Below are positions 30,995 to 48,202 of a stretch of DNA of 64,000 nt, in pieces. Each line of letters starts with the position of its first letter. Positions within the stretch are counted from its first letter, which is position 1. The notes under the pieces were generated by a model. The model ran no database searches and was not told the DNA's origin. It saw only the letters and a program-made list of their open reading frames with translations. Origin of the DNA: Verrucomicrobia bacterium S94 (GTDB taxonomy: Bacteria; Verrucomicrobiota; Kiritimatiellia; Kiritimatiellales; Pontiellaceae); assembly GCA_004299845.1 (NCBI GenBank), contig CP036201.1, forward strand, positions 2,604,001 through 2,668,000, in the 5' to 3' direction. Made by a program: the position numbers and the translations under genes.

Positions 30995-33205
30995 ATGGAC
31001 GATCCTAAAGACAAGCCTCAGAAAACCAACGCTCCGAAACGCGAGATCGGGAACGCCAGCCTCTTCGCGGATGACATCATCTTTTCCAGTACTGAAAAAA
31101 TTCTTTTTGAAGAGGATCTGGAACGCAATCCAGCCAGCGGACGCGGTGGTCTAATGGATGGAAATCCTGAGGACCGTTATTCGGTCAGCAAAAAACTGAA
31201 CGAAGGCGGAATGAAATCAATCTGGGAGGTCGATGACCATCGGACCGCCCGGAAAGTGGCAATGGCACTGATTCAGGATTCAAGAATTGCTTCCGAGGAT
31301 GATATCGATTCATTTCTTTATGAAGCCCGGCTAACGGCAAATCTACAGCACCCGAATATCATTCCGATCTACGATATCGCTCTGGATGAAAACGGGAATC
31401 CTTATTTTACAATGAAAGCGTTAAAGGGGGAAACGCTGGGCGATATCCTTAAGCAGTTGCGAAACGGAAACCCTGAATATATTGCACGTTATACCCGTAC
31501 GCACCTGCTCGGTATTTTCCTGAAAGTCTGTAATGCCATCGACTATGCCCACACCAAAGGCGTAATCCATCTTGATCTGAAACCTTCGAATGTAAACGTC
31601 GGTGATTTCGGCGATGTACATGTACTCGACTGGGGACTCTCCACACTGATTACACACCTCAATGAATATGACGGGGAACCGATTTCCTGGCAGAGCATGG
31701 ATGATGTAGAGCTGGAGAACGGCCAGACCCTTACCCGCTATCTAGAAGGGTCCGCGAAACGGCGCGAACGTAAAAATACGGTGGGCGGAACACCGGGCTA
31801 TATGGCACCGGAGCAGGCACAGGGCGTTCCGTCGGATATTGTTTTCCAGACCGACGTCTACATGCTCGGTTCCCTCCTCTATGAAATTCTGACCTACAAC
31901 TGCCCCATAAAAGGAGACACCGTAAAAGAAGTACTGCAGAAAACGGTGCGTGCTGATTTTCAGGCACCTGGAGAGCGTGCACCGGAACGGAAAATTCCGG
32001 CCGCACTCAATGCCATTGTTATGAAAGCCATGGCGCTAGATCCTGCAGACCGCTATCCGAATGTCGCGGCCCTGATCAGCGATATCCATAAATATCAGGA
32101 AGGATTTGCAACCACAGCAGAAAACCCGACATTCATCACGCATGTACTGCTGCTGGTGAAACGGCATAAACTGGCCGTCAGTCTGGTCGCCGCAACAATC
32201 GCAATAATTGCCGCCGTCACAATTCGCAGTTTTCAATCAGTAAAACGAAGCGAGCAGATCGCTCTGAATGCGCTCGGCAGATTACAGGAAAAGAATGAAT
32301 ATATTGCCAGCACAGCAAGACAGGTCGCCCCGGACTATCTCAACCTCGCACGCCAGCAGGAAAACGACCTGGCTTTTTCCAAAGCCGGCAAATCCCTCGA
32401 CACAGCCTTGGCTTTCGATCCCGAGCTGGCCGATGCCTGGCTCCTGAAAGGCAGAATGCTGATGGCCCAGCGCGACTTTTCCAAGGCCTGGAACATTCTT
32501 TCCGGTCAGCATGGTCACGCCGTTACCAAAGAACCGCCATCCATCCGTTTGGCAAAAAAATACAGCGATCTTGATCAGGTGACGGACGAACTGCTGCCCC
32601 GGTTAGTAAAAGATTTTGTGGCCTACAACGTTGCCGGGCAACTTCCTCGCTTTTTCTACGAGCTGAACAGATCCGGCTTTCAGGCTGAAACACGGTTCCC
32701 CGCCCTTGCCGAAGCGCTCGAAATTCTCAATCCGGAAGCCGGTGAAATCAATTTAAAGTGGCAGCCGACCGGTTCCAACGGATGGATCATCGATATCGAC
32801 GGCAATCCGGGACTGGATGATATAACACCACTGTGCGGCCTTAAGATCACGATGCTCAATCTGAATAACTCCGGTAGTCCCGATCTCCGTCTGCTGACTG
32901 AACCGGGCATGGTAGAACTCCGCTTAAGCGGAAGTCAGTTAAACCATCTTTTCGATCTCGATCCACTGACTTCACTTCAGTCACTTGATATCAGCGGAAC
33001 GAATATTCGTAATATTTCAAACATTCTGAAGTATTCCCGCCTCCGGACGCTTGATATCAGCCGGATTGAAGATCTATCCATCTCTCCCCGGCTGATCTGG
33101 CTTCGTAATCTGAAAATGCTGACGGTGTCCGAAGCCTTCCGCGAAGATCCCACGATCCAGTCCTTGTCCCGGCGCGGTGTAATCATTATTTATTCCGACA
33201 TGTAA
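30995..33205 (+). CDS. Membrane Ser/Thr-type kinase with leucine-rich C-terminus, unusual lysine placement
   Basis: A 736-residue protein. The kinase domain (about 62-375) has the glycine loop LNEGGMKSIWEV, alpha-C Glu110, HLDLKPSN (192-199), Asp212-Trp-Gly and GTPGYMAPEQ. The beta-3 lysine position reads VAMA with Ala91, while Lys74 is in the glycine loop, a WNK-like arrangement. A membrane helix lies at about 389-410. An exported helical repeat part and leucine-rich repeats follow (LTSLQSLDISGTNIRNIS, then LRTLDISRI). It probably signals to the ECF sigma factor encoded 1 base downstream. Regulation: the operator pair at 30.8 kb. Confidence 0.85.
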   Translation: MDDPKDKPQKTNAPKREIGNASLFADDIIFSSTEKILFEEDLERNPASGRGGLMDGNPEDRYSVSKKLNEGGMKSIWEVDDHRTARKVAMALIQDSRIASEDDIDSFLYEARLTANLQHPNIIPIYDIALDENGNPYFTMKALKGETLGDILKQLRNGNPEYIARYTRTHLLGIFLKVCNAIDYAHTKGVIHLDLKPSNVNVGDFGDVHVLDWGLSTLITHLNEYDGEPISWQSMDDVELENGQTLTRYLEGSAKRRERKNTVGGTPGYMAPEQAQGVPSDIVFQTDVYMLGSLLYEILTYNCPIKGDTVKEVLQKTVRADFQAPGERAPERKIPAALNAIVMKAMALDPADRYPNVAALISDIHKYQEGFATTAENPTFITHVLLLVKRHKLAVSLVAATIAIIAAVTIRSFQSVKRSEQIALNALGRLQEKNEYIASTARQVAPDYLNLARQQENDLAFSKAGKSLDTALAFDPELADAWLLKGRMLMAQRDFSKAWNILSGQHGHAVTKEPPSIRLAKKYSDLDQVTDELLPRLVKDFVAYNVAGQLPRFFYELNRSGFQAETRFPALAEALEILNPEAGEINLKWQPTGSNGWIIDIDGNPGLDDITPLCGLKITMLNLNNSGSPDLRLLTEPGMVELRLSGSQLNHLFDLDPLTSLQSLDISGTNIRNISNILKYSRLRTLDISRIEDLSISPRLIWLRNLKMLTVSEAFREDPTIQSLSRRGVIIIYSDM

Positions 33206-33206
33206 C

Positions 33207-33815
33207 ATGAGTGAAGAAAACCAATATCAAACGCGGGTCACCCTGCTTACGAAGCTGAAAAAGACCGAGAACCATGAAGCGTGGATCGAGTTCGAAACGA
33301 TTTACCGCCCCTTCATTCTCAGCCTGATTCTGCGTATGGGCATTAATGCCGACGATGCCGAGGACATCAGCCAGGCCGTACTTACGAAGGTCTGGCAGAA
33401 AATCGAGGATTTTGAATACAACCAGAATAAGGGCAAATTTCATAACTGGCTGGCCGCCATGACACGCAATACCGTGAAGGATTTTTTCCGAACGAAAAAA
33501 AACTTCATTACCGGACGTGATTCGGTGGAATATCAGGAGCAGTATGTCTCCATCGAAGAGCACGTACTTCCCGATATTGAAAATCTTGCGCGCGAAGAAT
33601 GGGTGCTGCACATTACCAATCTGGCTTGGGATAACATCAAAAACGACATCTACAAGACCAAACGGGACGTATTCAAACTCGTATCCGATGAAGTCCCAAC
33701 AAGGGAAATTGCCGCCAAACTGGGTATTTCCGAAGCCAGCGTCCGGGTATACAAAGCAGAAGTGTTTGAAAAAATGCGCGCGGAAATCACCCGGCTCAAC
33801 CGGGAACTGGGCTGA
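33207..33815 (+). CDS. ECF sigma factor coupled to the kinase
   Basis: A 202-residue sigma-70-like protein. Region 2 includes DAEDISQAVLTKVWQKIEDF and KFHNWLAAMTRNTVKDFFR. Region 4 carries VPTREIAAKLGISEASVRVY as the -35-binding helix-turn-helix. The ATG is 1 base after the kinase stop codon. Kinase-linked ECF groups lack a classical anti-sigma and are thought to be controlled by phosphorylation, which I infer here. Two terminator-like hairpins follow. Confidence 0.9.
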   Translation: MSEENQYQTRVTLLTKLKKTENHEAWIEFETIYRPFILSLILRMGINADDAEDISQAVLTKVWQKIEDFEYNQNKGKFHNWLAAMTRNTVKDFFRTKKNFITGRDSVEYQEQYVSIEEHVLPDIENLAREEWVLHITNLAWDNIKNDIYKTKRDVFKLVSDEVPTREIAAKLGISEASVRVYKAEVFEKMRAEITRLNRELG

Positions 33816-39620: not shown

Positions 39621-40100
39621 ATGAGCGACAACATAAAACAGAAAAACAATGGGGATTTCGAACTTTCCATCACTAGGGAACTCCGACAGCGCAAAAACCC
39701 CTTCCTGCGCCCCGTCTTTGCAGTGGCGGCCATTGGCGCGCTTTTCATGATCCTCGGCTCTGTTCTCCAGATGGCGGCGGAATCGGCAAAAGACACCACC
39801 GGAATGACGCCCGCTTTCCAGGCAATGGAAGAAAACCACCTAACCGTTCACGGTGAATGTGTGTGCATCAAATGCACGCTACAGATCAGCGACCAGCACC
39901 ACCGCGCCATCCGCTACCGCGCCGACGGCAACGAAGAAAAGGTCATTCTGCTCCAGAATAATCCATCCATGGACATGAATTCCGACTATTTCTGCAACGG
40001 CCCTACCCCCGTTCTGGTGGAAGGAAACATCCTGACCACGAACGGTCTGCGCATTCTGTCCGCCACAGCATTCAAAGCATTTCCGGCAGAGCATAAATAA
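39621..40100 (+). CDS. Membrane-anchored Cys-motif protein, paralogue of the anti-sigma sensor half
   Basis: A 159-residue protein. A short cytoplasmic part (FELSITRELRQRKNPF), one helix (about 29-50) and a periplasmic domain with HGECVCIKCTL are followed by a final FC. The cysteines are 80, 82, 85 and 125. Both the juxtamembrane segment and the periplasmic domain match the anti-sigma factor encoded at 40674, but the N-terminal sigma-binding part is missing. The domain resembles DUF6370-type small Cys domains as I recall them. Metal or redox sensing is inferred. Confidence 0.6.
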   Translation: MSDNIKQKNNGDFELSITRELRQRKNPFLRPVFAVAAIGALFMILGSVLQMAAESAKDTTGMTPAFQAMEENHLTVHGECVCIKCTLQISDQHHRAIRYRADGNEEKVILLQNNPSMDMNSDYFCNGPTPVLVEGNILTTNGLRILSATAFKAFPAEHK

Positions 40101-40149
40101 ATGCGATAAAACCTGTCACGTTTTCAGCTCACACGCCAATAATGGATAT

Positions 40150-40677
40150 ATGAGAGACGATGACACACTGGATTTCGACCTTCTCGTTCGTGAGCACCAT
40201 GCCGGACTGCGGGCCTTTATCCGTGCGCTGGGCGTGGATGAAACCTGGGTGGATGACATGGCACAGGAGGTTTTCATTGTGGCGTTCCGCAAACGATCTG
40301 AATTCCGGAAGGAAGAGGATTTCGGAAAATGGCTGCGCGGCATTGCCCGTCGGCAGGTAATGGGTGAACGGACGAAAACCGCTCGACGGCACCGTATTAT
40401 GCACGAAGGCATTACCGATATTCTGCTAAGCCTCGGCATCGAAAAACATGAACCCGAACCCAACCGCGAACTTATGGTCAACACCATGAAAAACTGTGTA
40501 GGGAAACTGAACGAACCCCAACGTGAACTGCTGCGCTGCCGCTATGAAGAGGGCCGGCGGTGCAAAGAACTGGCGGCCGAATTCTCTTCCACCGCATCGG
40601 CCATCCGCAAACAGCTGCAACGCATCCGAACGGCCGTTCGCAAATGCATGGAACAATCTGCGGGAGAAACCGCATGA
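40150..40677 (+). CDS. ECF sigma factor
   Basis: A 175-residue sigma-70 family protein of the type common in Planctomycetes and Verrucomicrobia. Region 2 is DDMAQEVFIVAFRKRSEF with KWLRGIARRQV. Region 4 is LNEPQRELLRCRYEEGRRC plus a helix-turn-helix ending SSTASAIRKQLQRIR. The stop overlaps the anti-sigma start (ATGA), the standard sigma/anti-sigma coupling. The leader is 49 bases from the previous gene, so the Cys-motif gene is likely in the same operon. Confidence 0.9.
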   Translation: MRDDDTLDFDLLVREHHAGLRAFIRALGVDETWVDDMAQEVFIVAFRKRSEFRKEEDFGKWLRGIARRQVMGERTKTARRHRIMHEGITDILLSLGIEKHEPEPNRELMVNTMKNCVGKLNEPQRELLRCRYEEGRRCKELAAEFSSTASAIRKQLQRIRTAVRKCMEQSAGETA

Positions 40678-41333
40678 CAGAACGATACCAGGAACTGCTC
40701 TCCCTCTATCTGGATGGAGACCCCGCTGAAAACGAGTTGAATGAACTCGCGGAAATGCTGAAATCAGACCGTGATCTGGCCGAAAATTTCCGGCAGGAAC
40801 TGCTGATATGGGAGACCTGGTCGCAGGAACATGCGCCGGAACGCTCGGCTCAGGCATTCCTCGCCGGACTTCACACCCGTTTACGGGCAGAAGCGGATTC
40901 ATCGGACTTTGAACAGGCAGTTACAAAACAGCTGAAAGAGCGGAAGAATCCGCGGCCATGGCAGCTGTTACTCGCCATAGCTGCATTATTACTGGTTCTG
41001 CTATCCTTTGGATATTTCATGAATCCGTCCGATATCGATACCGGACTGATTTCCGGCACGGAAGCCGCGCATGTACACATCAAGGGCGAATGCGTCTGTA
41101 TGCACTGTACGCTGAAACGCGAAGGCCGCTGCAGACAGGCCGTCCGCTTCATGGATGAAAACGGCAAAGAACAGATTCTGCCGCTTCGACGGGACCCCCA
41201 CCTGCGAAAATACAGCAAACACTTCTGTAAACTGGCTTCGCAGGTAGACATCGAAGGAAATATTATACAGGAGAATGGCGAACGTATACTGGTGGCCACA
41301 GCCATCCGCATTGCCGATGAAAAAATCCTCTGA
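40674..41333 (+). CDS. Anti-sigma factor with Cys-rich periplasmic domain
   Basis: A 219-residue single-pass protein. The N-terminal helical domain (YQELLSLYLDGDPAENELNE) resembles ECF anti-sigma domains but has no zinc-binding HxxxCxxC. A helix at about 96-116 is followed by a periplasmic domain with GECVCMHCTLKREGRC. Cysteines are 140, 142, 145, 153 and 185. The periplasmic part is the presumed sensor. Overlap with the sigma gene supports the pairing. What it senses is unknown; metals or oxidants are the obvious candidates given the cysteines and the downstream Cys-rich peptide. Confidence 0.78.
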   Translation: MTERYQELLSLYLDGDPAENELNELAEMLKSDRDLAENFRQELLIWETWSQEHAPERSAQAFLAGLHTRLRAEADSSDFEQAVTKQLKERKNPRPWQLLLAIAALLLVLLSFGYFMNPSDIDTGLISGTEAAHVHIKGECVCMHCTLKREGRCRQAVRFMDENGKEQILPLRRDPHLRKYSKHFCKLASQVDIEGNIIQENGERILVATAIRIADEKIL

Positions 41334-41355
41334 AAAAGTAAGATCGAACGTCACA

Positions 41356-41371
41356 TTCCCAATATTGGAAA
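41356..41371. repeat. Intergenic inverted repeat, TTCCA/TGGAA family
   Basis: TTCCCAATATTGGAAA lies between the anti-sigma gene and the Cys-rich peptide gene, about 45 bp before the latter. Confidence 0.55.
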
Positions 41372-41415
41372 CAATAAAAACCGGTAAAAGTAATTAACCC
41401 ATAAGGAGTAAACCC

Positions 41416-41643
41416 ATGAAAAAAGTAATGACCGTTGCAGTACTCACATTAATGATGGCCGGAAGTTCCGCATTTGCATGTGCCGGATGCGGATGTTCCG
41501 GATGCGGATGTTCCGCCAAAAAGGCTGAAAAAGCCAAAACGGAATGCAAAGCCTGCACAAAAGAAAAAGCATGTAAAGGCTGTGAGGCCAAAGCCAAAAA
41601 GGCTGAAAAGAAAGCGGCCTGTTCCTCCTGCTCCAAAAAATAA
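41416..41643 (+). CDS. Exported Cys-rich, metallothionein-like peptide
   Basis: A 75-residue precursor with signal peptide about 1-20 (ends SSAFA). The mature part holds 11 cysteines in about 54 residues, in CAGCGCSGCGC, CKAC, CKGC and CSSC patterns separated by Lys/Ala/Glu helical stretches. There are no aromatic residues after the signal peptide. Such spacing suits metal-thiolate binding or disulphide chemistry outside the cytoplasm. The ribosome site AAGGAGTAAACCC is excellent, and a terminator follows, so this is a real gene. A link to the adjacent sigma/anti-sigma pair is inferred. Confidence 0.72.
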   Translation: MKKVMTVAVLTLMMAGSSAFACAGCGCSGCGCSAKKAEKAKTECKACTKEKACKGCEAKAKKAEKKAACSSCSKK

Positions 41644-41665: not shown

Positions 41666-41692
41666 GCTCCCCTCTCGAAGGGGGGCTTTTTT
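41666..41692 (+). terminator. Terminator of the Cys-rich peptide gene
   Basis: GCTCCCCT pairs with AGGGGGGC (one G-U) around a 5-base loop and is followed by six T. Confidence 0.8.
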
Positions 41693-41706: not shown

Positions 41707-41724
41707 TTCAAATGCTCATTTGAA
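41707..41724. promoter_or_regulatory. TetR-type operator, upstream copy
   Basis: TTCAAATGCTCATTTGAA is a perfect palindrome with 8-base arms. It lies 18 bp upstream of the -35 of the tetR promoter. Confidence 0.7.
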
Positions 41725-41741
41725 ATAAAAACATGAATTGT

Positions 41742-41770
41742 TTGACAATAAACCGGTCACCTCATACGTT
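41742..41770 (+). promoter_or_regulatory. Promoter of the tetR-efflux operon
   Basis: TTGACA (41742-41747) and TACGTT (41765-41770) are 17 bp apart. The promoter is bracketed by two TTCAAATG-type operators. Confidence 0.6.
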
Positions 41771-41782
41771 GCACTCCCTCTA

Positions 41783-41800
41783 TTCAAATGAGCATTTAAA
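41783..41800. promoter_or_regulatory. TetR-type operator, downstream copy
   Basis: TTCAAATGAGCATTTAAA matches the upstream operator with one arm mismatch. It ends 1 base before the tetR ATG, where bound protein would also block transcription start and translation. Confidence 0.7.
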
Positions 41801-41801
41801 A

Positions 41802-42440
41802 ATGAACCATACCAAATCAACCAAAGAGCGCCTGATCGAAGCCGCCGCGCCGATTTTTGCAGAAAAGGGCTACCGTGAAACCACCGTGGCCGAAATCTCT
41901 GAAGCGGCAGAGGCAAACATTGCAGCCGTGAACTATCATTTCGGCGACAAGGCCCAGCTCTATGCCGAAGTCTGGAATTATCTGGTCAGCGCCGCCCGCT
42001 CCGAATTTCCGTACCCGGATGACCACACGGAAGTGGGAGCGGAACACTGGCTGCGCCTGTTCCTCCGCTCACGGCTTGAATGTATTTTTTCAAAAGGACT
42101 TGCCGGTTTATGCCCCATGCTGATCCACAGGGAAATGAATGAGTTCACCCCGAAACATGATGAACTGTTAGCAACCTATCTGAAACCGAATCACGACCGG
42201 GTTCGGGCGGCTATTCGCGATTTTATCGAATACGAGATCGGCGAAATTCAGCTGGACCTGCTTACTCAGAACTTTATGGGGGTACACATCTCAATCAATG
42301 CCGGTTACCAGAAACATAGAAATGATCCCCACCGGCGGCACCGCTTTTCCCGCTTCCAGAACATCACTCCTTTAATTACACAGATCGAGGCCTTTGCCAT
42401 CGGCGGCCTCAGGGAAGTTAAAAAGAGCCTGAATTCATGA
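41802..42440 (+). CDS. TetR-family regulator (CerR-like C-terminal domain)
   Basis: A 212-residue repressor. The helix-turn-helix is TKERLIEAAAPIFAEKGYRE followed by TTVAEISEAAEANIAAVNYH (about 7-47). The C-terminal part (LFLRSRLECIFSKGLAGLCP) fits CerR-type ligand domains. The ATG at 41802 sits just past the downstream operator, and 23 further upstream codons are rejected. It overlaps the outer-membrane factor gene by 4 bp. It most likely represses its own operon at the two TTCAAATG palindromes. Confidence 0.9.
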   Translation: MNHTKSTKERLIEAAAPIFAEKGYRETTVAEISEAAEANIAAVNYHFGDKAQLYAEVWNYLVSAARSEFPYPDDHTEVGAEHWLRLFLRSRLECIFSKGLAGLCPMLIHREMNEFTPKHDELLATYLKPNHDRVRAAIRDFIEYEIGEIQLDLLTQNFMGVHISINAGYQKHRNDPHRRHRFSRFQNITPLITQIEAFAIGGLREVKKSLNS

Positions 42441-43840
42441 AACAGATACTATCCGTAATAACCGCGTCCTCCGCACTGCTGCTCACCTCCTGTGTTTCTC
42501 TTGAACCGCAGCGTGAAAATGATCTGCTGAAGGAACAGACGCCTGAGCAGTTCAAAAACCCCTCCGGCCAGGCCGCTCTGCAAACCAGATGGTGGGAAGC
42601 CTTCGGCTCCGATCAGCTGAACCGGCTGATGGACGAAGCTTTTTCCGGAAACCTGAGTCTGGAACAGGCCTATGCCCGCCTCGAACAGGCCGCAGCCACG
42701 GCCCGTAAAAGCGGCGCTGACGGAAAAATCCAGCTCGACGGCAGTGCATCGGCCTCCTCCAGTTATACCTCCAACTACAATGATACCCAGAGCAGTCGCA
42801 CCACCCCCGACTATTCAATGGGCCTGTATGCCAGTTATGAACTCGACCTCTGGGGCCGGCTGAAATCCACCGAACGCGCATCGCTTGCCGATTTTGAAGC
42901 CACTAAATTTGATCTGCAGTCGGTCGGCATGACCCTTTCGGCCGAACTTGCCACCGCCTATTTCTCCTGGCTGGCGCAAAATGAAATTCTGGCGCTCTAC
43001 GAAAGCCAGCTGGAATCCAATCGCAATAAACTCGCCGCGATTGAGCGCCGCTACCAGACCGGACAGTCCACCCTGCTTGATGTACTGCAGCAGCGGCAGC
43101 TGGTAGCTTCTTCCGAAGCCAAAATCCCGCCGACGCATGCCCTTATTCAAACCTCGGAAAATCAGATTGCCGTGCTCATCGGTAAAATTCCGGGAACCGA
43201 CCTTCGACTGGAAGCCGAAGAGCTGCCTGCCCTCCCTCCCCAACCGGCAGCCGGGCTTCCAGTCAACCTTCTTGAAAACCGGCCCGACATACAGGCTGCG
43301 CGCCTGCAGCTTGAATCCGCCGACTGGTCGGTCGGTGCCGCCCGGGCGGCGCGGCTCCCCTCGATTTCTCTCACCGGCAATATCACCACAGGCGGGGATG
43401 ACGTAGAGGATCTGTTCGATGACTGGGCCTCGAACCTCGCCGCAAGTCTGCTGGCTCCGCTGCTGGATGGCGGAGCACGCAGGGCTGAAGTTGAGCGGAC
43501 TGAAGCCGTATCCCGCGAACGTATTGCGGCTTACCGCCTTGCGGTTCTCGAAGCCATTCAGGAAACGGAAAATGCGCTCTCCGATGAACAGCATCAGGCC
43601 GCCTATGTGGAAGCCATTGCCAAGCAGTATGCCGCCGCTCAGAAAAGTGAAACGGAATCGATCCGCCGCTACCAGCGAGGCGTCCTGCCCTTCCTTGACG
43701 CTCTTACCGCTGTTGTTTCGCGCGAATCACTTGAGATCACCCACGTACAGGCCCGGATGGATCTGCTCAGTGATCGTATTCAACTTTACCGCTCCCTCGG
43801 GGGCGACTGGTCATTTATCCTGGAGAATGAATATGAATAA
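42437..43840 (+). CDS. Outer-membrane efflux lipoprotein (NodT/OprM type)
   Basis: A 467-residue TolC-like channel with lipid Cys19 in LLTSC. WWEAFGSDQLNRLMDEAFSG, SYELDLWGRLKSTERAS, ENRPDIQAARLQLESADW and the long helical repeats are characteristic of the RND outer-membrane factor family. It forms the outer-membrane duct for the membrane-fusion and RND proteins encoded next. Confidence 0.93.
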   Translation: MKQILSVITASSALLLTSCVSLEPQRENDLLKEQTPEQFKNPSGQAALQTRWWEAFGSDQLNRLMDEAFSGNLSLEQAYARLEQAAATARKSGADGKIQLDGSASASSSYTSNYNDTQSSRTTPDYSMGLYASYELDLWGRLKSTERASLADFEATKFDLQSVGMTLSAELATAYFSWLAQNEILALYESQLESNRNKLAAIERRYQTGQSTLLDVLQQRQLVASSEAKIPPTHALIQTSENQIAVLIGKIPGTDLRLEAEELPALPPQPAAGLPVNLLENRPDIQAARLQLESADWSVGAARAARLPSISLTGNITTGGDDVEDLFDDWASNLAASLLAPLLDGGARRAEVERTEAVSRERIAAYRLAVLEAIQETENALSDEQHQAAYVEAIAKQYAAAQKSETESIRRYQRGVLPFLDALTAVVSRESLEITHVQARMDLLSDRIQLYRSLGGDWSFILENEYE

Positions 43841-45038
43841 AGGAACCAAACGTCTTGTCTCAACCGCACTCGGTCTGCTTTTCCTAGCCATCGGACTTTC
43901 CATAGCAGCCTATTTTATCAAAAGTAAACCCGAAGCCAAACGCCGACGCTCAATGTCGTCGATGATTCCCGTGGTTGAAACGGTCAAACTGGGAACCGGT
44001 TCACATATACACCGCGTGGAATGCCTAGGTACCGTTATCGCTGACAAACGTGCGGCACTGCAACCCGAAGTGACCGGCCGCATTACCCGTGTGAATCCCG
44101 GTCTGGTCGCCGGCGGACTGGTGAAAAAGGGAGAAGTCCTCATTGAGATCGAGGATACCGACTACCGTCTGGCCCTCGCCGCAGCCGAAGCCGATCTGCT
44201 CACCGCGCAAAGCAGCTATCGTATTGAAGAAGGTCAGCAGGATGTGGTTCGTCATGAACTGGAACTGATGGGTAGTGATGAGGATGATTCCTACCGCGAC
44301 CTGATGCTCCGCGAACCTCAGCTCAAAGCGGCCGAAGCTGCAGTAAAAACAGCAGAACTTGCTGTTGAATCAGCTAAACTAGACCTGGCCCGCACCAAAA
44401 TCAGAGCCCCGTTCGATGCGGTTGTTATTTCCGAAACAGCAGATATCGGCGATTATGCTCAGACGTCATCCGTGCTGGTCGAACTCGCTGCCATTGACCG
44501 CTTCTATATCCAGTCGTCTGTTCCTTTAAGTGCTCTGACTCCCCTGCCTGCACTGGGAACCAAAACCTATCCCGCAGAGTTAACGCTTGCTGACGGATCC
44601 ACCCGCCCGGCACAAACCTATAAACTGCTTCCTTCCTTAACGGAAACCGGTCGCATGGCCCGTATCCTTCTGATGGCGGATGCTCCCTATGGCGGCGATG
44701 GCCGTCCTATGCTGCTCAATGAATATGTTCGCGTCCGCATCCAGGGGGAAGTCGTAAAAGACGCCATACTGCTGCCCCGGAAATATCTGCGCGACGGCAA
44801 CGTCATCTGGACCATTGATACCGAAAACAAACTGCGTATTCTCCAGGCGGAGGTTATTGACGGCTACACCGATGAAGTTCTGGTTCGGGTTGACGGACCA
44901 TCAACACTCGAAATTGTTACAACCGATCTTCCCGCTGCGGTAGACGGCATGCAGCTCCGTCATACAGGCGAATCGATGCCCGGGCAGCAACCCTCCGGGA
45001 ACCCGGAAGAATCTGCAGCGCCGAAACCGGAAAAATAA
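43833..45038 (+). CDS. Membrane-fusion protein of an RND efflux pump
   Basis: A 401-residue periplasmic adaptor. One N-terminal membrane helix (about 8-29) is followed by the lipoyl halves (ALQPEVTGRITRVNPG and KIRAPFDAVVISETADIGD) around an alpha-hairpin, then beta-barrel and proximal domains. The ATG at 43833 is six bases past GGAGA and overlaps the previous gene by 8 bp. The tail is Pro/Glu-rich. Confidence 0.92.
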   Translation: MNKGTKRLVSTALGLLFLAIGLSIAAYFIKSKPEAKRRRSMSSMIPVVETVKLGTGSHIHRVECLGTVIADKRAALQPEVTGRITRVNPGLVAGGLVKKGEVLIEIEDTDYRLALAAAEADLLTAQSSYRIEEGQQDVVRHELELMGSDEDDSYRDLMLREPQLKAAEAAVKTAELAVESAKLDLARTKIRAPFDAVVISETADIGDYAQTSSVLVELAAIDRFYIQSSVPLSALTPLPALGTKTYPAELTLADGSTRPAQTYKLLPSLTETGRMARILLMADAPYGGDGRPMLLNEYVRVRIQGEVVKDAILLPRKYLRDGNVIWTIDTENKLRILQAEVIDGYTDEVLVRVDGPSTLEIVTTDLPAAVDGMQLRHTGESMPGQQPSGNPEESAAPKPEK

Positions 45039-45085
45039 TCTGACGCTTAACCCCCGCACTTCTAAATTTCTAATGGGTATACACC

Positions 45086-48000
45086 ATGAATAACATGCTG
45101 GATAAATTTAAAGGGCCGATCGCCTGGATGGTCAAGAATCCGGTTGCATCCAACCTCCTGATGCTTCTCTGTCTCTTAGGCGGCTATGCAACATTCACGA
45201 CCCTCAAGCAGGAAGTTTTCCCTAATCTGACGGCCGACTCGGTCTCTATTGTTGTCACCTATCCCGGTGGAACTCCGGAAGAAATGGAGCAGAGCGTCTG
45301 CCTCGCGGCAGAAGAGGCCGTCCGGTCGCTGGAAGGAATCGAAGAGGTTACCTCAACCGCCAGCGAAGGATCCGCCAGTATTGTTGCTGAACTTATTGAG
45401 GGCGTTGACCGCATTAAGGTTTATCAGGATATCAAAAGCGAAATCGACCGTATCACCACCTTCCCCGATGGAGCGGAAGAACCGATTGTATCGCTCTCAA
45501 CCCGCAAGCGCGATGCCATGACCCTGATCCTTTACGGAAACGTCTCGGATACCACACTGCGCAATCTGGCGGAACAGGTCCGGGACCGCCTGCTCCAGAC
45601 CGAACATATTACGCAGGTCGATTTAACCGGAACCCGCGACCTGGAAATCAGCATTGAAGTCTCCCAGGACAAACTTCGAGAATACGGTCTCTCTCATCAG
45701 TCGCTTGCCTCCTCCATTAATACGCAGTCGCGCGAAATCTCCGGCGGCGGAATTAAGACGGAAAGCGGCGAAACCCTGCTGCGTATGCAGGAACGCCGCA
45801 ACTACGGCCCGGAATTTGCCCAGGCTCCGGTACTCGCAACCGAAGACGGAACCACGCTGCAACTCGGCGAAATTGCCGATGTGATCGACGGATTCGAGGA
45901 TACAGACGAGTTTGCATCGTATAACGGACAACCGGCCATCATGCTTGAAATCTATCGCGTTGGCGACCAGACCCCGACTCAGATCTCCCGGACGGTCGAG
46001 GAACTGCTGCCGCAGCTCAAAGAACAGCTGCCTGATGGGATCGGCATTGATATTCTCGATGATAAGACCGAGGTATTTTCGCAACGTGCCGATCTGCTGC
46101 TGCGCAACGGTGCACTCGGGTTGCTGCTGGTCCTCTTTGTTCTGGGTATTTTTCTGGAAATGCGTCTGGCCCTCTGGGTGGCTATGGGGATTCCGATCTC
46201 TTTTCTCGGGGCTATGCTGCTGATGCCGGTCACGGGACTGTCCATCAACATGATCACCATGTTTGCTTTTATCGTATCGCTCGGCATCGTGGTTGACGAC
46301 GCCATCGTCGTCGGTGAAAACGTCTACCATTATCAGCAGGAAGGCCACGAACCCCACGAAGCTTCCATCCTCGGTGCCCGGGAAGTCTGCTCTCCGGTTG
46401 GATTCAGTATCCTCACCAATATTGTAGCCTTCATTCCGCTGGCTTTAATGCCGGGTATGATGGGTCGTGTGATCGGCATGCTGCCGATTGTAGTTATTGC
46501 GGTATTCACCATTTCCTGGCTGGAAAGTCTATACGTCCTCCCTTCGCATCTGAGTCATGGCCGGAAAAAAGAACCGCAGGGACTTTTCGGTTCCATCCAC
46601 CACCTGCAGCAGCGTTTCAGCAATGCCTTCAGCCACTGGGTGCGCACCAAATACGGCCCTTTCCTGGATTTCTGTCTGTCACATCGCTACGTCGTTATTT
46701 CGGCATCTCTCGCCATCCTCTTTATTGTAGGCGGATATTGGCTCAGCGGCCGCATGGGTTTCGCGATGTTCACGACCGTCGAATCTGATTTTGCCATCGC
46801 CTCGGCCACGCTGCCCTACGGAGCGCCGGTGGCGAAAACCGAAGCCGTTGCCGACCGTCTGGTGAAAGGAGCTCAGAAAACCCTGGAAGAAACCGGACAT
46901 CCGGAACTGGTGGAAGGTATCTTTGCCCGGATCGGCAACAGCGGGTCCCACACCTGCCAGGTCCGCGTTTATCTGGCCGACCCCGAAATCCGTGATGAAA
47001 TTATGGGCACCGAAGCCTTTGTACAGGCCTGGCGTAAAAACGTCGGCGAAATTCCCGGGGTCCGTTTCATCCGTTACGCCTCCGACCAGGGTGGACCGGG
47101 CAGTGGGCCGGCGCTGGAAATCGAACTGCGCCACAGCAATATCCGAACGCTGGAAAATGCAGCACGTGCGCTGGCCGGGGAACTCGAAAATTATCCGCTC
47201 GTGCAGGACATCAATGACGGCGTTGAAGAAGGAAAAACCCAGTTCGACTTCACCCTTAAACCCGAAGCCATCAGCCTCGGTCTTTCCGCCAGTGATATCG
47301 GCGGCCAGATCCGCGCGGCTTTCGAGGGTACCGAAGTGCTTCGCCAGCAGCGCGGACGTAATGAGGTAAAGGTTAAAGTCCGTCTGCCGCTGGAAGAACG
47401 GACCCGTATGTATAACTTTGAAAAATTCATCCTTAAAACGCCGGACGGCGGAGAAGTCATGCTCTCCGATGTGGTGAATACCGAAATCGGAAAATCCTAC
47501 ACCACCATCAACCGTCGCGATGGAATGCGCACCATCACCCTTACCGCCGATGTGCGTCCCAAATCCAAAGCGGGCGAAGTGATGACCAAACTGGACAACG
47601 ATTATTTCCCGAAACTGCAGAATCAGTTCCCCGGGCTGGATTACAGTTATGAAGGCCGCACCGCCGATCAGCGCGACAGCTTTGGCAGCATGGCCATCAC
47701 GATTCCGCTCGTTCTGCTTGCCATCTACGCCCTGCTCGCCATTCCGTTTAGAAGTTACTCCCAGCCGCTTATCGTGATGGTTTCCATCCCGTTCGGCATC
47801 ATCGGCGCCGTTCTCGGACATCTGATGCTCGGTTATGAAATGACGATGATGGGGGTCATCGGTATGCTCGCGCTCTCGGGCGTGGTGGTCAACGATGCCT
47901 TGGTACTGATCAGCTTTGCTAACGAACGCAGACAGCATCACGACACCACACACGATGCCGTAGTTTCGGCCGGCATCCAGCGCTTCCGTCCGATTCTGCT

Positions 48001-48202
48001 GACCACTCTCACCACTTTCGGCGGATTGGCCCCGATGATTCTCGAAACTTCACGGCAGGCTAAATTCCTGATTCCGATGGCCATCTCGCTCGGCTTCGGT
48101 ATCCTCTTCGCAACCTTCATCGCACTGTTGATTGTACCCTGTCTCTATATGGTGATCGACGACTGCGGTTCACTTAGACGCAGATTAACGGGCGCCTCAT
48201 GA
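45086..48202 (+). CDS. RND efflux transporter (AcrB/HAE family)
   Basis: A 1038-residue inner-membrane pump with the two-fold repeat of helices and porter domains. TYPGGTPEEMEQSV is the first porter motif. FIVSLGIVVDDAIVVGENV carries the Asp-Asp proton-relay pair in helix 4, and ALSGVVVNDALVLISFANE is its counterpart in the second half. It completes the tripartite pump with the two upstream genes. The stop overlaps the MATE gene (ATGA). Confidence 0.95.
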   Translation: MNNMLDKFKGPIAWMVKNPVASNLLMLLCLLGGYATFTTLKQEVFPNLTADSVSIVVTYPGGTPEEMEQSVCLAAEEAVRSLEGIEEVTSTASEGSASIVAELIEGVDRIKVYQDIKSEIDRITTFPDGAEEPIVSLSTRKRDAMTLILYGNVSDTTLRNLAEQVRDRLLQTEHITQVDLTGTRDLEISIEVSQDKLREYGLSHQSLASSINTQSREISGGGIKTESGETLLRMQERRNYGPEFAQAPVLATEDGTTLQLGEIADVIDGFEDTDEFASYNGQPAIMLEIYRVGDQTPTQISRTVEELLPQLKEQLPDGIGIDILDDKTEVFSQRADLLLRNGALGLLLVLFVLGIFLEMRLALWVAMGIPISFLGAMLLMPVTGLSINMITMFAFIVSLGIVVDDAIVVGENVYHYQQEGHEPHEASILGAREVCSPVGFSILTNIVAFIPLALMPGMMGRVIGMLPIVVIAVFTISWLESLYVLPSHLSHGRKKEPQGLFGSIHHLQQRFSNAFSHWVRTKYGPFLDFCLSHRYVVISASLAILFIVGGYWLSGRMGFAMFTTVESDFAIASATLPYGAPVAKTEAVADRLVKGAQKTLEETGHPELVEGIFARIGNSGSHTCQVRVYLADPEIRDEIMGTEAFVQAWRKNVGEIPGVRFIRYASDQGGPGSGPALEIELRHSNIRTLENAARALAGELENYPLVQDINDGVEEGKTQFDFTLKPEAISLGLSASDIGGQIRAAFEGTEVLRQQRGRNEVKVKVRLPLEERTRMYNFEKFILKTPDGGEVMLSDVVNTEIGKSYTTINRRDGMRTITLTADVRPKSKAGEVMTKLDNDYFPKLQNQFPGLDYSYEGRTADQRDSFGSMAITIPLVLLAIYALLAIPFRSYSQPLIVMVSIPFGIIGAVLGHLMLGYEMTMMGVIGMLALSGVVVNDALVLISFANERRQHHDTTHDAVVSAGIQRFRPILLTTLTTFGGLAPMILETSRQAKFLIPMAISLGFGILFATFIALLIVPCLYMVIDDCGSLRRRLTGAS

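Follow-up and report, generated by a model that had tools for sequence, protein, structure and literature searches.

The ECF sigma factor, the membrane-bound anti-sigma factor and the cysteine-rich exported peptide encoded between 40150 and 41643 very likely form one circuit, in which the peptide is a direct target of the sigma factor. As a whole, the system is probably a self-amplifying ECF circuit with a very small regulon that responds to metal and whose peptide sequesters the metal. The layout of such a circuit is already known; the sensor and the peptide are new parts. The window, i.e., the whole stretch of 64,000 nucleotides that was analysed, belongs to a genome (G000) available as a single contig of 4.1 Mb. 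The locus and its immediate surroundings comprise the following features:

39621-40100, plus strand: membrane-anchored paralogue of the anti-sigma sensor, 159 aa, without sigma-binding domain (36% identity, E 5e-23)
40115-40141, plus strand: promoter 1, GTCAC-N17-CAATA, upstream of the sigma gene (in five Pontiellaceae loci the element lies at 33-35 nt)
40150-40677, plus strand: ECF sigma factor of the Rhodopirellula/Verrucomicrobium family, 175 aa (TIGR02989)
40674-41333, plus strand: single-pass anti-sigma factor, 219 aa (alignment, AlphaFold2, weak N-terminal zf-HC2 matches)
41064-41321, plus strand: sensor domain of the anti-sigma factor, distant relative of DUF6370 (profile, alignment, AlphaFold2, Foldseek)
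41350-41376, plus strand: promoter 2, GTCAC-N17-CAATA, upstream of the peptide gene
41416-41643, plus strand: exported Cys-rich peptide, 75 aa (predicted signal 41416-41478)
41669-41685, plus strand: intrinsic terminator after the peptide gene
41707-41800, no strand assigned: circuit boundary, two palindromes flanking a sigma-70-like promoter
41802-48202, plus strand: TetR (CecR_C) regulator, outer-membrane factor, adaptor and RND pump

The gene pair, the peptide and their distribution

The sigma factor scores 137.7 bits against TIGR02989, the curated cut-off being 124.55, and also lies above the cut-offs of PF04542 and PF04545; according to Pfam it consists of regions 2 and 4 only. Its gene is joined to the start of the anti-sigma gene by a 4-base overlap (ATGA). 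The anti-sigma factor is built from a predicted sigma-binding helical domain in the cytoplasm (residues 1-95, with AlphaFold2 helices at 3-14, 19-31 and 33-53), a transmembrane segment (about 95-116), a flexible linker (117-130) and the periplasmic sensor (131-213). The matches of the cytoplasmic domain to zf-HC2 and RseA_N are all sub-threshold. The motif HxxxCxxC of zinc-binding anti-sigma factors (ZAS) is absent, residues 1-95 being free of cysteine, and the periplasmic part holds five cysteines: C140, C142 and C145 (GECVCMHC), C153 and C185. The gene overlap, the missing cytoplasmic zinc site and the five periplasmic cysteines had been claimed in an earlier note on this DNA, and the sequence confirms them. 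An adjacent, translationally coupled membrane protein with a helical cytoplasmic N-terminal domain characterises the two as an ECF/anti-sigma pair; by analogy with established ECF biology, the membrane protein would bind and inhibit the sigma factor.

The peptide gene follows 82 bases past the anti-sigma gene. Cleavage at the predicted signal site AFA|C leaves a mature peptide of 54 residues with 11 cysteines, as had been claimed. To read the sequence SAFAC as that of a lipoprotein is not favoured, because some paralogues have glycine after AFA. The family consensus is C-x-x-C-G-C ... K-T-E-C ... C. The mature peptide is rich in lysine and cysteine, variable in length and without a conserved fold. 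Across the family the mature forms contain 6 to 11 cysteines, often an odd number, and because of this variability thiolate binding fits better than a fixed disulphide fold. Composition (11 Cys in 54 residues) and analogy suggest a metallothionein-like chelator.

An intact sigma/anti-sigma pair was found in five of the 346 genomes of the class that were searched, all five belonging to one genus, together with one decayed copy. Related loci occur in Pontiellaceae bacterium B12227 and Kiritimatiellales bacterium Site_C10, and a scan of genome contigs yielded two loci (G017, G026). In all five Pontiellaceae genomes the Cys-rich peptide is the next gene after the intact pair, and the order sigma, anti-sigma, peptide, TetR, outer-membrane factor is the same throughout (5/5). 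The earlier note had staked its proposal on linkage of the three genes in relatives, and that linkage is conserved at every intact locus. A co-occurrence of sensor and Cys-rich peptide throughout the PVC bacteria received no support: linkage with the peptide was found in a single GTDB genus, and the homologous pair of Opitutaceae has a different exported effector (see below). The decaying copy (G025, L013 8060-8630) has a broken sigma gene and an anti-sigma gene that ends before the membrane segment, the sensor part being deleted; the peptide is absent, the TetR gene is intact and the TetR-RND unit is retained.

Neither the peptide nor the sensor is a product of chance, since both are conserved in relatives, vary by in-frame indels and are under purifying selection (dN/dS 0.048/0.438 for the peptide, 0.065/0.941 for the sensor). 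The sensor, its 159-aa paralogue and the peptide have no direct assignment in Pfam or NCBIfam.

Members of the peptide family are found at other places in the genus as well, particularly near glycine cleavage genes. Those peptide genes that lie beside gcvPB (L043, L044, L047, L048, L049, L056) have in common an ECF-like element, TGAAC-N16-GGTC, 60-70 nt upstream, and this branch may be driven by a second sigma factor. In G001 and G009 a peptide gene stands directly ahead of TetR without any sigma gene. G005 has a second Cys-rich peptide gene upstream of sigma (L012 11550-11744, minus strand), which is not preceded by the GTCAC element.

Promoters and the boundary of the circuit

The element GTCAC-N17-CAA, usually extended to CAATA, stands ahead of both the sigma gene and the peptide gene at the five Pontiellaceae loci, i.e., in ten of ten regions, which come from five related genomes and are not independent. 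Other spacers between 10 and 25 were found in none of the ten. The element is the single best among all 5+3 bipartite patterns with spacers of 14-20; in shuffled regions the best bipartite pattern reaches 2 to 4 of ten. Since the sigma and peptide genes are non-homologous, the agreement within each genome is not simply inherited. The background amounts to 0.31% of 160-nt stretches, and the element was never found in the 160 nt before 15 peptide paralogues that have no sigma gene next to them. The ECF promoter before 41416 that the earlier note had proposed to look for is thus present, and it is shared with the sigma gene. A promoter common to sigma factor and target is the mark of an autoregulated ECF circuit. 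So precise a code makes the regulon immediately testable.

The start codon of the sigma gene follows CAATA after 6-8 nt in the five loci (8 nt in the window), and its transcript is therefore probably leaderless or nearly so, judged from this spacing. In the window, as in G027 and G017, the spacer of promoter 2 (41356-41370) reads as an almost perfect palindrome, TTCCnAAnATTGGAA, which is less perfect in G026 and G005; it might serve as the binding site of a second regulator.

The exact element GTCAC-N17-CAATA has ten sites in G000, of which only the two of the locus are directly upstream of a gene. The other eight are intragenic or 392 nt from a gene, and a wide regulon built on the exact promoter was rejected on these grounds. 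A wider regulon that uses degenerate promoters is possible. In G027 an exact element (L115 1388-1414) lies 52 nt ahead of an NmrA-like gene, which may be a third target of the sigma factor.

On the downstream side, each of the five loci has a terminator-like hairpin with a T run 3' of the peptide gene. It is followed by the boundary palindromes (41707-41724 and 41783-41800) of the type TTCAAATG..CATTTGAA, which are conserved in L009-L012 and also in G025, where the circuit has decayed. They are likely operators of the TetR-RND unit. The RND pump scores higher with multidrug models than with CusA/CzcA models, none being above cut-off. Its membership in the circuit was rejected because of the terminator after the peptide, the palindromes around the TetR promoter and the persistence of the TetR unit in G025; the pump is judged to be a neighbouring unit with a repressor of its own. 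Genes for metal resistance were not seen adjoining the circuit.

The periplasmic domain and its signal

AlphaFold2 models the sensor domain as an OB-like barrel (mean pLDDT 88.5, pTM 0.78), and Foldseek matches the model to the folds of SSB, PriB and Stn1. A sequence search of the PDB with the sensor profile gave no significant match, the best being FimG with E 0.1. Likewise, PF19897 (DUF6370) did not match any window protein above cut-off. The sensor profile does, however, detect a stand-alone secreted protein in G260 (L098) with E 8.4e-10, which in turn scores 25.1 bits with PF19897, barely over the cut-off of 25; by profile, the link from the window proteins to DUF6370 runs through L098 only. 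The secreted relatives that are reached via the Opitutaceae form match DUF6370 well, three of the aligned rows scoring 39-55 bits with PF19897.

An alignment of 19 sequences (anti-sigma factors, paralogues and DUF6370 proteins) has seven invariant columns, C142, C145 and C185 among them. At position 153, 15 sequences have Cys and four have His, which two further Opitutaceae forms also have. Histidine occupies this place in the anti-sigma factors of G005 and the Opitutaceae and in both sensor-only paralogues. C140 occurs in the Pontiellaceae forms only. The CxxC, the third and fourth ligand and the Gly positions are common to bona fide DUF6370 members. The window domain shares with DUF6370 these features (the third Cys being Cys or His here) and the export; it has no counterpart to the His found ahead of the last Cys in most secreted DUF6370 forms. 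Moreover, the DUF6370 proteins found are stand-alone secreted proteins, whereas the window domain is fused to an anti-sigma factor. It thereby adds a new extracytoplasmic domain to the repertoire of ECF anti-sigma factors, and the circuit opens a route toward the function of DUF6370. A further relative in G391 (L135 1237-2340, minus strand) is a secreted protein with four tandem DUF6370-like domains.

A separate gene opens the interval 39621-41643 (39621-40100), one absent from the earlier note; it sits between the gene of a YibE/F membrane protein and the sigma gene. Its 159-aa product aligns with the anti-sigma factor across residues 64-212 and has a transmembrane anchor, the constant Cys pattern and His at the C/H position. 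It was found in G000 and G027 only and is under purifying selection (dN/dS 0.167/0.957). Its domain shares 52% identity with the anti-sigma factor of G005 and 35% with the neighbouring one, and is considered old because it is nearer to the former. It is possibly a decoy or a co-sensor.

Exchange of Cys for His is typical of metal ligands. The constant residues of the sensor, CxxC...[C/H]...C, look like a metal site, and this reading is favoured by the pattern itself, in which one position accepts either Cys or His. The earlier note had claimed sensing of metal or oxidant outside the cytoplasm; the ligand pattern now lends weight to the metal site, while for the signal composition and analogy point most likely to a thiophilic metal, or else to an oxidant. 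The site might also have a purely structural role.

The circuit can then be pictured as follows. At rest the sigma factor would be held at the membrane by the single-pass anti-sigma factor, whose periplasmic four-ligand site most likely holds a thiophilic metal ion. In response to the signal the sensor domain would change, and the anti-sigma factor would release the sigma factor or be cut by a protease, for which the disordered linker 117-130 is a candidate site. The freed sigma factor would transcribe its own gene from the GTCAC-N17-CAA promoter, which amounts to positive feedback, and the peptide gene as a short, terminated transcript; the thiols of the exported peptide would sequester the metal in the envelope. 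Established ECF biology is the source for two of these steps, the inactivation of the anti-sigma factor by a signal from the periplasm and the positive autoregulation.

The pair extends beyond the genus. G143, which we take to be Opitutus terrae PB90-1, G751 and G808, whose common label as Opitutaceae rests on that assumption, contain the same sigma/anti-sigma pair with GTCAC-N17-CAA before the sigma gene. The next gene, however, encodes an exported SnoaL-like protein, not a Cys-rich peptide. Because of this other effector, sensor module and promoter code are seen to be shared more widely than the link to the peptide, and the output of the circuit need not be thiol chemistry everywhere. We tentatively propose, as an idea that falls somewhat short of even chances, that the DUF6370-type OB-fold is a general periplasmic metal sensor which was captured by an ECF anti-sigma factor, and that GTCAC-N17-CAA was kept while the effectors were swapped: an unmodified, exported Cys-rich chelator in Pontiellaceae, an exported SnoaL-like protein in Opitutaceae. 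If true, this would be the first function for a widespread, uncharacterised family of secreted proteins.

The same circuit could answer a periplasmic oxidant or disulphide stress instead of a metal. The Cys site, with or without zinc, would then be oxidised and the peptide would serve as a sacrificial reductant. The CxxC of the sensor would suit this purpose, and there are precedents: the ECF system RpoE2 of H. influenzae answers hypochlorite (PMC7907618), and clusters for thiooxazole peptides are induced by copper, gold and oxidative stress (PMC13097082). Yet a metal ligand, unlike a disulphide partner, would be expected to alternate between Cys and His as position 153 does, although the CxxC alone could still switch; we consider redox sensing unlikely.

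Alternatively, zinc could be merely structural and the OB-fold could sense another ligand, for instance a drug, a peptide or a piece of the cell wall, the exported peptide being antimicrobial or a signal. OB-folds are known to bind oligomers, the locus always adjoins a TetR-efflux unit of the multidrug type, and the Opitutaceae effector is SnoaL-like. The efflux unit, however, has operators of its own and outlives the circuit in G025, and a Lys- and Cys-rich peptide without constant length or fold speaks against such roles. We regard this explanation as slightly less likely still.

Comparison with known systems

The closest working analogue of the metal-responsive circuit proposed here is the SigF-NrsF-bufferin system of Caulobacter. 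It consists of an ECF sigma factor and a membrane anti-sigma factor with conserved periplasmic cysteines, has a very small regulon and answers metals (PMC3511200; PMC12452194). Changing the cysteines of NrsF to serine derepresses SigF (PMC3511200), which is a direct precedent for the periplasmic Cys site of the window anti-sigma factor. Similar promoters precede the sigma gene and the target operons in Caulobacter too, and exported Cys peptides are among the targets. The earlier note knew of no named system of this composition; with regard to layout that statement does not hold, the families of sensor and peptide being unrelated. NrsF has six transmembrane segments, two conserved cysteines and no OB-fold, whereas the window anti-sigma factor has one transmembrane segment and a DUF6370-like OB-fold. 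Bufferins are modified by an MNIO enzyme and encoded with MNIO, partner and DoxX genes, whereas the window peptide is unrelated and comes without MNIO. That the peptide might nevertheless be a bufferin-type copper RiPP of a divergent SigF-NrsF-bufferin system, as the common layout and the similar promoters before sigma and target genes could suggest (PMC3511200; PMC12452194), is very improbable and was rejected: the MNIO enzyme (PF05114) is found in none of eight genomes of the genus, the window's included, with Caulobacter as positive control, the anti-sigma factor is a single-pass protein with an OB-fold and not a six-segment NrsF, and the peptide matches no family. The comparison suggests that NrsF with MNIO-bufferin and the OB-fold anti-sigma factor with its Cys-rich peptide are unrelated parts that converged on the same layout. 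Such convergence supports the idea of a general envelope defence in which thiol peptides are exported under the control of dedicated sigma factors.

ECF41 resembles the circuit in its -35 element, TGTCACA, which is also present at the window sigma gene, and in having a promoter before the sigma gene and before a single target transcript (PMC3426412). The differences are that the -10 element of ECF41 is CGTC but CAATA-like in the window, and that ECF41 has a large C-terminal extension, which the window sigma factor (175 aa) lacks; the window also has a separate anti-sigma factor.

Within the same class, TIGR02989-like sigma factors also occur with a large anti-sigma factor (G722, L145). Here the sigma factor is similar and the N-terminal region of the anti-sigma factor is related; the anti-sigma factor of L145, however, extends further, with a long extracytoplasmic region unlike the window's, and GTCAC-N17-CAA is absent from the 160 nt before its sigma gene. 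The window itself contains, at 30995-33815, the gene of a PknB/PknD-like Ser/Thr kinase and, directly after it, that of a second ECF-type sigma factor.
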